From the NCBI RefSeq assembly GCF_002245895.1, contig NZ_NPJZ01000001.1, positions 1,524,501 through 1,588,500 on the forward strand: 64,000 nucleotides of DNA, read 5' to 3'. Shown in pieces: positions 9,383 through 12,329 of the stretch. The DNA is from Rhodococcus sp. OK302 (GTDB lineage Bacteria; Actinomycetota; Actinomycetes; Mycobacteriales; Mycobacteriaceae). Each line of letters starts with the position of its first letter. Within the stretch, counting starts at the first letter, position 1. The position numbers and the translations under genes are program-made. The notes beneath the pieces were generated by a model. The model saw only the letters and a list, made by a program, of their open reading frames with translations, was not told where the DNA came from and made no database searches.

Positions 9383-10198
9383 GTGCTGCTCACGGTCGAT
9401 GTGCGGAACACCAACATCGTTCTCGGCCTGTTCACCGGGGTCGGTGAGTATTCGAAGCTGGTGCAGGACTGGCGAATGCGTACCGACCCGCGGATGACAG
9501 CTGACGAGTTGGCGTTGACGTTCCGGGGGCTGCTGGGTCAGCACGTCGATCAAATCACCGGAGTTGCTGCGCTGTCGACTGTTCCGTCGGTGTTGCGTGA
9601 GATTCGGGTGATGCTCGAACGCTACTGGGGGCATGTTCCGCATGTGGTGGTCGAGCCCGGGGTCCGTACCGGGGTGCCGCTCCTGGTGGACAACCCCAAA
9701 GAGGTCGGTGCCGACCGGATCGTGAACAGTCTTGCCGCGCACTATCTTTACGAGAGTGCGTGCATCGTCGTCGATTTCGGTACCTCGACGTGTATCGACG
9801 TCGTTTCGGCCAAGGGGGAGTTCCTCGGCGGTTGTATCGCGCCCGGGCTCGAAATCTCGACCGATGCCTTGGCGTCGCAGTCTGCCGCGCTGCGCAAGGT
9901 CGAGTTGGTCCGTCCGCGTTCGGTGGTCGGAAAGAACACGGTGGAGTGCATGCAGTCCGGGGCCGTGTTCGGGTTTGCCGGACTGGTCGACGGGTTGGTG
10001 CGCCGTGTCCGCGAGGAGTTGCCGGAGTTCAGTGGCCCCGATGTGGCCGTCATAGCTACCGGAGACAGTGCGCCCCTGATCATTCCGGAATCCTCCACCA
10101 TCGAACATCTCGAACGTGATCTCACTCTGGAAGGGCTGAGGTTGGTGTTCGAACGCAATCAGGCACGTCGTGGATCGGGTCGTCGGCCGGTCGAGTGA
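9383..10198 (+). CDS. coaX: Type III pantothenate kinase
   Basis: Phosphorylates pantothenate, the first committed step to coenzyme A, and completes the panC-panD-coaX run. The 271-residue ASKHA-fold protein shows the phosphate-1 loop [24 protein letters not shown] and the GCIAPGL segment typical of CoaX. The start is GTG. The DVRNTN form (R instead of the usual G) is also the form I recall from mycobacterial CoaX, so it is not a defect. Confidence 0.96.
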
Positions 10199-10247
10199 CG
10201 AAGTAGATTCGGTTCACCTGTTTCGCGATTGCAGAAGTTGTGCCACA

Positions 10248-10298
10248 ATGGTCAACGTGAATCGTTGCATGAGTGCTCAGGAGTGTTGTCGAGGCTGA
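10248..10298 (+). CDS. Cys-rich leader peptide uORF
   Basis: A 16-codon ORF, M-V-N-V-N-R-C-M-S-A-Q-E-C-C-R-G, ends 40 bases before the cysteine dioxygenase gene. Three of 16 codons are Cys, including an adjacent TGT-TGT pair close to the stop; Cys is otherwise rare in this genome. AGGAG at 10279-10283, inside the Gln-Glu codons just before the Cys pair, is complementary to CTCCT at 10322-10326, which lies next to the downstream ribosome site GGAG (10328-10331). Cys-rich uORFs that attenuate sulfur genes are known in mycobacteria; here the downstream gene degrades cysteine. Translation is inferred, and no clear ribosome site precedes the ATG. Confidence 0.7.
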   Translation: MVNVNRCMSAQECCRG

Positions 10299-10338
10299 CC
10301 GCTGCCTTGACCAATTCACATCTCCTTGGAGCTAGCTC
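10299..10338 (+). promoter_or_regulatory. Attenuator segment before cysteine dioxygenase
   Basis: Forty-base stretch between leader stop and GTG. It contains CTCCT immediately upstream of the ribosome site GGAG, so the CTCCT can pair with AGGAG in the leader ORF or locally mask the ribosome site. The local stem is short (about three pairs with a four-base loop), so this reading needs folding. Confidence 0.4.
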
Positions 10339-10974
10339 GTGCTATCCACATATTCTGCAGATCTCTCTGTTTTAGTCCCTACTCTTGCATCTGACGGCGG
10401 CGTTTCCGCAGGTCGCAGTGCTAATCGTGGCTCTTCCGGACGTCGCCGCACCGGGGCTTCGTTGCCGACGCGGTTGCGTACCGCTGACCTCCTTCGCCTC
10501 ACTGACGAGGGTGCCAACGGTGTTCTCGACGGACGTTTCGACCACCTCATTCCCGAGGCGTTTTCCACCACGGAGCGCTGGGCAACTCGCCTGCATTCCG
10601 ACGACGACGTCGATGTCTGGCTCATCAGTTGGGTGCCGGAACGCAACACCGAATTGCATGACCATGCAGGATCTTTCGGTGCGCTCACGGTGCTCAGTGG
10701 TTCGCTCACCGAATATCGTTGGGCTGGTGAAGAATTGCTGGAGCGTCAACTCGACGCCGGCGATCAGGCGGCCTTTCAACTCGGGTGGGTACACGACGTC
10801 GTACGGACGCCGGAGGCATCCAGTGAGCCAATCGAAATCAGTGCTGATTCACCAACTTTGAGTGTTCATGCCTACTCTCCGCCGTTGACGGCAATGTCCT
10901 TCTACGAAGTGACGGATCACCGCACACTTCGCCGCACCCGTACCGAGCTGACCGACCAGCCCGAAGGAGCCTGA
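10339..10974 (+). CDS. Cysteine dioxygenase
   Basis: Non-haem iron cupin enzyme that oxidises L-cysteine to cysteine sulfinate. The 211-residue protein carries the cupin iron ligands HDH (H107, H109) in TELHDHAGSFGALTVLSG and H177 in SVHAYSPPL, both diagnostic of the family. The N-terminal 50 residues are low in complexity and basic. GTG is seven bases after GGAG. It is two bases upstream of a rhodanese gene, suggesting a shared operon for cysteine sulfur disposal, and is probably controlled by the Cys-rich leader ORF. Confidence 0.92.
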   Translation: MLSTYSADLSVLVPTLASDGGVSAGRSANRGSSGRRRTGASLPTRLRTADLLRLTDEGANGVLDGRFDHLIPEAFSTTERWATRLHSDDDVDVWLISWVPERNTELHDHAGSFGALTVLSGSLTEYRWAGEELLERQLDAGDQAAFQLGWVHDVVRTPEASSEPIEISADSPTLSVHAYSPPLTAMSFYEVTDHRTLRRTRTELTDQPEGA

Positions 10975-10976
10975 AA

Positions 10977-11399
10977 ATGACTATCGACCAAATGCTTGAC
11001 GACGCCCGCACTCAGATCGATCGCATGTACATTTTCCAGCTCACCGAGGCATTCCACCGCGGGGCGATCTTTGTCGATATTCGCCCGCAGGCTCAGCGCG
11101 CCATTGAAGGAACCCTTCCCGGCGCTCTCGCCATCGAGCGCAATGTCCTCGAATGGCGTCTCGATCCCAGCAGCAGCGCGCACCTCGCTCTGGCCACCGA
11201 CCACGACGTCGAGTGGGTCATCGTCTGCTCCGAGGGATACACCTCGAGCCTGGCAGCTGCGTCGTTGCAGCAGCTCGGCCTGCGAAACGCTACCGATCTC
11301 GCGGGCGGATACAAGGCCATCAAGGCCGCCGGACTACTCGGTGCGCTCAGCGGTGTGCGTCATTGCACCCGTGAGTTGGCGGCGGTCGCAGCTCACTAG
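10977..11399 (+). CDS. Rhodanese-like sulfurtransferase
   Basis: Single-domain rhodanese of 140 residues. The active-site loop CSEGYTSS places the persulfide-forming Cys at 84, preceded by the VDIRPQAQR strand that marks rhodanese domains. It follows the cysteine dioxygenase by two bases, so it likely handles sulfane sulfur or sulfite formed downstream of cysteine oxidation. Its last 66 bases overlap the convergent AraC-type regulator gene. Confidence 0.9.
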   Translation: MTIDQMLDDARTQIDRMYIFQLTEAFHRGAIFVDIRPQAQRAIEGTLPGALAIERNVLEWRLDPSSSAHLALATDHDVEWVIVCSEGYTSSLAAASLQQLGLRNATDLAGGYKAIKAAGLLGALSGVRHCTRELAAVAAH

Positions 11400-12329
11400 T
11401 CCCGCTTCGCGGAACGATCTCGGACTCATGCCGTGATGGCGGGTGAATGCCGTCGTCAGCGCAAAGGGACTGGAGTAGCCCACTTCTCGTGCGATGGACG
11501 ACACCGTCCGGCTCGGGTCGGCGAGTAGATTCGCGGCAACGGAGAGTCGCCATTGCGTCAGATACCCAACTGGTCCGATGCCCAATTGTGCGGTGAATCG
11601 GCGCGCGAAAGCGGCACGGGAACAGCCGGTTTCATGGGCCAAGCTTTCGACGGTCCACCGGTGTTCCGGTCGGTTGTGCATGAGCCGCAAGGCATGACCG
11701 ATGACGGGATCTTCGTACGCTGTGATCCACTGTGGTGCATGATCCGGATGCTTGGTGAACCACGTTCGGACGGTTGAAATCAGAACCAAGTCGAGGAGAC
11801 GATCAAGCAAGACTTCCTGTCCGGGTCCGTCGGCGGATATCTGTTGTCCCAGAAGCGTTGTCATCGACTCTGTTTCGGTACTTCGTCGTACGACCGCGAC
11901 AGGAGCAAGACTGTCGAGAATCTGCCGACTGACGTAGCTGTCCAAACGGTATGTGCCCGTGAGCATGACGGTCTGGCCGTTCGTCGAGTTGCCCCAGGTG
12001 CGAATGCCGAGAACCGACATGTCCTCGAGTGGTGAACCGTCGACCGCTGTGCAGTTCTGCATTTCGTCGATGATGACGTGAATCGGGGTGTCGGGATGGT
12101 CGGCGACCGTGTAAGAGTCGGGTCCGCGCAGAAGTGCGACGTCTCCGGTTGCAAGGTTCTCGGTCTGGCCGGTATCGGAGATGACGACGGCACTGCCGTG
12201 GAGGACAGCCAGCACCGTGACTGGCGCGTGGTCTTCGATGCGAAGTGACCAGGGCGGATCAAGAAGCGAACGCAGCAGAAATGCTCCCTCTGCTCGCGAT
12301 CCCGACAGCATCATCGACAGTGCATCCAT
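11334..12329 (-). CDS. AraC family regulator with cupin sensor
   Basis: A 331-residue transcription factor. The N-terminal half is an AraC-binding cupin (residues about 1-190, with SLRIEDHAPVTVLAVLHG). The C-terminal half has two helix-turn-helix motifs: SLAHETGCSRAAFARRF, then SSIAREVGYSSPFALTTAF, followed by MSPRSFR. It diverges from the NmrA-like/DUF1772 pair with about 80 bases between starts, so those genes are its likely targets. The 3' end overlaps the rhodanese gene tail by 66 bases in antisense. The ligand is unknown. Confidence 0.93.
   Translation of the reverse strand: MDALSMMLSGSRAEGAFLLRSLLDPPWSLRIEDHAPVTVLAVLHGSAVVISDTGQTENLATGDVALLRGPDSYTVADHPDTPIHVIIDEMQNCTAVDGSPLEDMSVLGIRTWGNSTNGQTVMLTGTYRLDSYVSRQILDSLAPVAVVRRSTETESMTTLLGQQISADGPGQEVLLDRLLDLVLISTVRTWFTKHPDHAPQWITAYEDPVIGHALRLMHNRPEHRWTVESLAHETGCSRAAFARRFTAQLGIGPVGYLTQWRLSVAANLLADPSRTVSSIAREVGYSSPFALTTAFTRHHGMSPRSFREAGLVSCDRRQLTGAMTHTAERTE

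Follow-up and report, generated by a model that had tools for sequence, protein, structure and literature searches.

The cysteine dioxygenase (CDO) gene of Rhodococcus sp. OK302 and the rhodanese gene behind it are preceded by a short upstream open reading frame (uORF) that ends in two adjacent cysteine codons, and a short ORF ending in Cys-Cys was found just upstream of CDO in 143 of 163 loci of the family. Comparative sequence analysis and fold models point to a ribosome-controlled leader sensing cysteine as the best reading. More specifically, the leader is proposed, with a probability of roughly 0.55, to act as a ribosome-mediated translation attenuator over the CDO and rhodanese operon, with cysteine scarcity as the ON state. 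The DNA analyzed here (the window) is a stretch of 64,000 nucleotides, and the features of the locus are compiled in Table 1. The gap between coaX and CDO_I comprises 140 bases and the rhodanese gene starts two bases past the end of CDO; an AraC-type regulator with a Cupin_6 domain, encoded on the minus strand at 11334-12329, separates the rhodanese gene and lysS. The protein was also considered as a possibly mislabelled enzyme for another thiol. Its best solved relatives carry the name cysteine dioxygenase and 162 of the 163 CDO homologues contain a W..R motif N-terminal to HDH, which by eye resembles the signature of Arg-type CDOs.

Table 1. Features of the leader and its neighboring genes (positions within the window)
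Feature	Position	Strand	Basis
coaX (type III pantothenate kinase), upstream neighbor	9383..10198	+	PF03309
Extended -10 element (TG 10241-10242, hexamer CACAAT 10244-10249)	10241..10249	+	TGNYANNNT in 87 of 104 distinct leaders
Leader ORF, 13 codons, VNRCMSAQECCRG up to the stop	10257..10298	+	13-codon start available in 125 of 143 Cys-Cys leaders
P1 5' arm, uORF codons 4-6	10267..10274	+	codon-anchored pairing counts
GCUC of the uORF, pairs with GAGC 10329-10332	10275..10278	+	covers three of the four Shine-Dalgarno bases
P2 5' arm AGGAGUGU, pairs with CUCCU 10322-10326 and ACA 10318-10320	10279..10286	+	MFE fold
Cys-Cys codon pair TGT TGT, presumed sensor	10284..10289	+	Cys-Cys in 143 of 163 loci
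P3 5' arm GUCGAGGC, pairs with GCCUUGAC 10304-10311 around the uORF stop	10288..10295	+	
Shine-Dalgarno site GGAG of the CDO gene	10328..10331	+	read from the sequence
P1 3' arm, with the CDO start codon GTG 10339-10341	10335..10342	+	pairs with uORF codons 4-6
Cysteine dioxygenase-type protein (CDO_I), 211 aa	10339..10974	+	PF05995, 47.5 bits, cut-off 23
Rhodanese-domain protein, 140 aa, next gene of the operon	10977..11399	+	PF00581

A first-pass annotation of this DNA had described a 16-codon ORF with three Cys codons, two of them adjacent and near the stop, 40 bases before CDO, and all of this is read in the sequence. The frame from ATG 10248 encodes MVNVNRCMSAQECCRG, ends with TGA 10296-10298, 40 bases ahead of the CDO start codon, and has Cys codons at 10266-10268, 10284-10286 and 10287-10289, the final two forming a pair located two codons before the stop. 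ATG 10248 was rejected as the start of translation, because it lies partly within the -10 hexamer and many relatives lack it; the start that the relatives have in common lies 13 codons before the stop (GTG in 95 and ATG in 9 of 104 distinct leaders), and the uORF is therefore likely to begin at GTG 10257. Upstream of it, the 104 leaders share T and G at -16 and -15 (97 and 90), Y and A at -13 and -12 (91 and 93), T at -8 (91) and C at -1 (91). The extended -10 element is spaced by seven bases from GTG 10257, the distance expected for a transcript that begins on the start codon, which places the ORF at 10257-10298; transcription probably starts at 10257 and would yield a leaderless mRNA. The annotation had named a transcription start downstream of 10298 as an argument against its reading. 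The conserved -10 element upstream of the uORF speaks against such a start, while a consensus scan found no full two-hexamer sigma-70 promoter at the leader. The motif GARTGYTGYCGNNNNTGA occurs at this locus only, with no further copies in the genome.

CDO homologues were collected by searches of 151 relatives and 331 family genomes. Of the family genomes 213 were matched, and the 163 loci analyzed comprise 61 plus the best 102 of the other 152; this sample was chosen by score, excludes weaker family CDO matches and leans to closer CDO relatives. The leader peptides (given here up to the stop) end in ECCRG at 114 loci, in another Cys-Cys sequence at 29 and with a single Cys at 9, and none was found at 11 under a strict rule (under a looser one, L030 and L168 do show a Cys close to the stop). 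The same search for Cys-Cys ORFs on the reverse strand gave 1 of 163, so that the uORF exceeds chance, and from these comparisons it is judged to be real, old and strongly conserved. The pair is encoded by TGT-TGT at 136 of the 143 loci, by TGT-TGC at 2 and by TGC-TGT at 5, and it is kept in peptides that otherwise differ, such as ...WNRMCCC, ...MCMCCR and ...GFCECCRP. In the window leader only two Cys are adjacent; some relatives have three or four. The conservation of Cys codons that the annotation had asked for thus extends to the adjacent pair but not to the first Cys (10266), which is absent, e.g., in L023, L028, and L034.

Cys leaders of other sequence precede CDO further afield. Five more distant family CDO loci all have other leaders with Cys-rich endings, e.g., ...AQKCCLR and ...DACCPQNCRAL. 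Among nine loci from other families of the order (L062-L070, counted separately from the 163), seven (L062-L066, L068, L069) carry a third kind of leader, approximately FW..RR...FD..C near the stop, which is absent in L067 and L070; this leader peptide is longer and conserved between families. A pattern scan of named genomes returned at least 119 loci and, among the matches listed, 55 have CDO within 900 bases behind, including Rhodococcus erythropolis, R. opacus, R. jostii, Rhodococcoides fascians, many Nocardia, Prescottella agglutinans, Aldersonia, and Speluncibacter. The other 64 listed matches include 11 rhodanese loci and two at which the sequence ends early (L248, L285); most of the remainder come from records titled as unrelated bacteria and look like chance matches, as judged with 18 of the loci viewed.

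Folding of the window leader gave -39 kcal/mol, 2.6 standard deviations below shuffled sequences, and over 104 distinct leaders the mean z was -3.6, with 89% below -2. These leaders form the main set (115 of the 143 Cys-Cys leaders, 104 distinct), defined by a GTG or ATG start at 13 codons, a Cys-Cys pair with two codons between it and the stop, a distance of 30-80 bases to CDO and a recognizable Shine-Dalgarno (SD) site. The MFE shape is one long hairpin in which the uORF pairs with the SD site and start codon of CDO; pair probabilities are 0.94-1.0 at 10329-10331, and 10328 is unpaired with 0.94. The pairing of AGGAG (10279-10283) with CTCCT (10322-10326, one base from the GGAG), to which the annotation had drawn attention, is present and its AGGAG side is conserved, but it constitutes only the middle part of this longer hairpin.

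Both arms of P1 are anchored on codons, which allows scoring independent of any alignment. Over the 104 leaders 85.3% of the P1 cells are paired, compared with 81.1 ± 0.6% for shuffled partners (0 of 1000 as high) and at most 54% when the arms are slid by 1-4 bases; on 52 distinct arm pairs the values are 81.0% and 76.7 ± 1.0% (0 of 5000 shuffles). In P3, 93.3% of cells are paired in 52 sequences, three of which show a double change from A-U to G-C, and pair 33-54 is unpaired in 24 of the 52. An alignment count over four P1 pairs and P3 in these 52 sequences gave 94.6% paired cells (0 of 500 shuffles; at most 45% when slid) and 6 cells changed on both sides (1 of 500 shuffles as high). Its other measures are mixed, as the covariation score was reached by 19 of 500 shuffles, the number of pairs with double changes (2) by 103 of 500 and the number of further pair types (8) by every shuffle. 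The 5' arm of P2 is nearly invariant, so covariation there says little. Structural support rests mainly on P1 and the slid controls, P2 and P3 varying little, and the sequence comparison indicates that the base helix P1 is kept by compensating changes. The masking hairpin is present in some leaders of other type (L043, L046, L145) and absent in L052, L060, L143, L154, L166, and L170, and several Cys-Cys leaders from the genera designated g29, g9, and g8 form it weakly or not at all. Within 10150-10450 no terminator-like site was found, and an attenuator with an intrinsic terminator was rejected since no terminator hairpin lies between uORF and gene. A known Rfam cis-regulatory element was likewise rejected, the sole match being on the other strand with an E-value of 3.7, far below the gathering score. 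In Nocardia-type leaders (L034, L110, L111, L123, and others) more copies of GCCTCGAC, TTCGAGGC, or CCTCGAC are present between the uORF stop and CDO; these could form mutually exclusive 1:2, 2:3, and 3:4 hairpins resembling those of a classical attenuator.

The effect of ribosome position was modeled by forbidding pairing under a 28-base footprint and computing the cost of opening the region from SD to start codon, which was scored in the 103 of 104 main-set leaders with GGAG in place. The mean cost is 13.9 kcal/mol with no ribosome, 7.8 with the first Cys codon in the A site, 7.8 with the second, 8.8 at Arg, 8.9 at Gly, and 10.3 at the stop. The first Cys codon costs less than the stop in 87 of the 103 leaders and the second in 83, and the stop costs less than no ribosome in 96. 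The value is 7.1 ± 2.9 for eight further GGAG-started ORFs of the window (200 codons or longer) and 14.6 for CDO itself; judged by these costs, a leader stalled at Cys is much like an ordinary gene, and a leader free of ribosomes is masked. In the window leader with a ribosome at the stop, 10329-10331 and the start codon stay paired with 10267-10278, and in the stalled state a local hairpin of 10328-10330 with 10345-10347 remains. Opening is similar for ribosomes anywhere from the fourth codon to the second Cys (means 7.0-7.8 in 51 leaders) and the cost climbs only past the pair (8.7, 8.8, 10.3), hence nothing in the fold is specific to the Cys codons, which in the model are only the last positions that fully open the ribosome-binding site (RBS). 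The model predicts that a stall at the Cys codons should raise expression, low cysteine being the ON state.

According to the proposed attenuation, a ribosome supplied with plentiful Cys-tRNA would clear the Cys codons, terminate at TGA and leave, upon which the hairpin would form and CDO and the closely spaced rhodanese gene would be poorly translated. With Cys-tRNA short, the ribosome would wait at TGT-TGT and cover the 5' arm (about 10269-10299), thereby opening the ribosome site, so that CDO and rhodanese would be made. This reading is supported by the retention of Cys-Cys in differing peptide contexts, with TGC in seven cases, by the Cys-ending leaders of other sequence before distant CDO genes, and by the covariation of P1 together with the lower opening cost upon a Cys stall. 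It is further supported by the SD site and start codon staying shut with a ribosome at the stop, by the lack of a terminator-like site, by a similar Cys leader before a NIR_SIR gene in the same genome, and by the Cys leaders of mycobacteria, with cysteine-dependent attenuation reported for M. smegmatis in the excerpts cited below. It is weakened by the physiological oddity of making a cysteine-consuming enzyme under cysteine shortage, by an opening that is not specific for Cys codons and leaves a local hairpin in the stalled window leader, and by the g29, g9, and g8 leaders without a hairpin and the mixed alignment covariation.

The opposite direction had been put forward in the first-pass annotation: at high cysteine free passage of the ribosome would raise CDO, and a stalled ribosome would free CTCCT to mask the RBS. 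Such control would suit the removal of excess cysteine, the uORF and the AGGAG and CTCCT elements do exist, and more distant genomes also have Cys leaders before CDO, two of them lacking a rhodanese gene, so that the argument from a gene that destroys cysteine keeps some force. That argument is not decisive, as leaders elsewhere serve rhodanese alone. Masking of GGAG by CTCCT was rejected on the fold of the window leader with a ribosome at either Cys codon, in which their pairing probability is about zero, and the fold models have the stall opening the RBS, from which cysteine would be expected to lower expression; this direction appears unlikely. A degradative enzyme could also be induced by its substrate if the nascent ...ECCRG peptide held the ribosome at high free cysteine or a related thiol and thereby opened the RBS. 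TnaC, the leader of the tryptophanase operon, acts by such ligand-induced arrest, and likewise contains the sensed amino acid and precedes a catabolic gene. The E, R, and G beside the Cys pair are kept at 114 of 163 loci, any ribosome held before the stop opens the RBS, and the order-level leaders have the longer peptide FW..RR...FD..C in common. Against arrest, the conserved codons also serve as arms of P2 and P3, Cys codons persist in unrelated peptides with up to four Cys, which fits tRNA sensing, and, in contrast to TnaC, a ribosome at the stop codon is expected from the fold to have little effect, with the window RBS staying shut; an arrest peptide is thus rated as rather improbable.

Two further explanations dispense with either RBS masking or cysteine sensing. 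Translation of the uORF might govern Rho-dependent or other transcriptional control, as is proposed for mycobacterial cys leaders without hairpins in the available text of PMC1262725, and several g29, g9, and g8 leaders have no masking hairpin; this hairpin is conserved in the ECCRG group and an intrinsic terminator is absent, which makes control of this kind quite improbable. Simple translational coupling, with uORF translation merely opening the hairpin, would agree with the similar opening by a ribosome at any position between the fourth codon and the second Cys, but the Cys pair is kept beyond the need for pairing, with synonymous changes and in unrelated leaders, and coupling is regarded as very improbable.

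Rhodanese follows CDO in 68 of 69 family loci (L001-L061, L071-L078), the 69th (L048) being cut off. At eleven loci CDO is missing and a leader of the same type stands before the rhodanese gene (R. marinonascens, R. gordoniae, R. aetherivorans, other Rhodococcus, Williamsia, and one record titled Kitasatospora), and all 11 sit between coaX and lysS. At least six of the eight P1 pairs form in 9 of 11 scored CDO-less leaders (L336 and L337 fall short; Williamsia leaders were left out). In CDO-less Rhodococcus (L194, L261, L276, L277, L280, L288) the rhodanese N-terminus looks like a fused CDO N-terminus, which would fit loss of CDO through an internal deletion sparing the start site. The record titled Kitasatospora arboriphila (L247) shows the coaX-leader-rhodanese-lysS block as in Williamsia and is possibly a mislabelled or contaminated assembly, or a transfer.

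The association with rhodanese extends beyond these loci. Two loci of the genus designated g30 (L057, L059) encode the CDO and rhodanese domains in a single open frame and have no Cys leader before CDO, and a leader precedes a second rhodanese-like gene at coaX in these genomes (L359, L362). A further 36 rhodanese loci of the family were inspected: a leader with Cys-Cys or Cys-x-Cys immediately precedes the gene at 22, a Cys leader lies before a distant CDO at 5, and none was found at 9; many of the 22 have replaced the active-site Cys (SSDG, SEDGHDAE). At L356, L358, L360, L363, L364, and others a rhodanese-like gene without catalytic Cys has its own ECC leader, and some of the genera concerned also contain a CDO-rhodanese operon with a different Cys leader. 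The order-level loci L065 and L066 have leader and CDO and no rhodanese gene behind, nor elsewhere at E 1e-8. With these two loci and the 9 of 36 rhodanese loci without a Cys leader, rhodanese was rejected as the one constant target; by sequence comparison the leader accompanies the operon or either gene alone, not rhodanese only. This lowered the probability given to the attenuator from 0.6 to 0.55 and slightly raised that of the first-pass model. A wider proposal is tentative: a cysteine-scarcity switch would drive CDO and rhodanese across Rhodococcus, Nocardia, Prescottella and allies, with CDO serving sulfur re-allocation and not detoxification; unrelated Cys leaders would have arisen before CDO elsewhere, and one leader family would have stayed with rhodanese through loss of CDO and of the active-site Cys.

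In M. smegmatis, low cysteine reportedly raises expression by freeing a masked RBS, as the work of Canestrari et al. from 2020 is said to describe. The leader resembles the mycobacterial leaderless polycysteine short ORFs in its short and probably leaderless frame, its contiguous Cys codons near the 3' end, a sulfur or cysteine operon downstream and, as far as sequence and folding suggest, control of downstream translation by ribosome movement through the Cys codons; folding and covariation indicate an RBS-masking structure removed by a stalled ribosome in the main 104 leaders. In contrast to those ORFs it comprises 13 codons with usually only two adjacent Cys, and CDO and rhodanese lie downstream with a long covarying hairpin that includes the start codon. 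Excerpts of the literature, citing Canestrari et al. (2020), report cysteine-dependent elongation control or attenuation for M. smegmatis (PMC9031893, PMC13236596, PMC9094748), in one of them as translation attenuation in the sense given above, together with cysteine biosynthetic genes (PMC13236596). For Mycobacterium and others, leaders with runs of Cys codons were predicted ahead of cys operons (PMC1262725, excerpt), and leaderless Cys-rich uORFs were described before cysA2, Rv0485, and nirA in mycobacteria (PMC4633059, excerpt). In these excerpts the actinobacterial leaders likewise have a short upstream ORF in which consecutive Cys codons lie close to the stop; they differ in the downstream genes, and those of PMC1262725 have no conserved terminator hairpin, whereas an RBS-masking hairpin is conserved here. 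The uORFC-8-2 motif before cysS in Rhodobacterales likewise has two tandem Cys codons in the leader stem and, according to the excerpt of PMC8632094, an intrinsic terminator, which the CDO leader lacks. A literature search, in which Canestrari et al. (2020) was not covered, did not find this leader before CDO.

As far as seen, what is new is the target, a cysteine-consuming enzyme together with rhodanese. If the proposed attenuation is correct, control by Cys codons would extend from biosynthesis to a cysteine-consuming operon and the role attributed to cysteine dioxygenase in Rhodococcus and Nocardia would be called into question. The small rhodanese-domain protein, at times without catalytic Cys, is flagged as a recurrent target of such leaders, and the small leader with its base-pair covariation is suited to a simple reporter assay. 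The CDO leaders of g29 end in, e.g., CECCRP, and ribosomal protein S3 of one g29 genome differs at three of 191 residues from PDB chains that are probably mycobacterial, so a CDO leader may already be among published loci. Beside the cysH/cysD and cysE matches of the window's own genome no Cys leader was convincing, except at the head of the NIR_SIR stretch. There, a leaderless-looking Cys leader (L386), MTGLGVRLVARRHVDFKRVCSSTCLPSCCC up to its stop, lies some 860 bases ahead of the NIR_SIR match at 5,089,554; its start region, CACAATGGTCGAC-ATG, nearly equals the CACAATGGTCAAC-GTG of the window, and the stretch it heads also has two PAPS_reduct matches.
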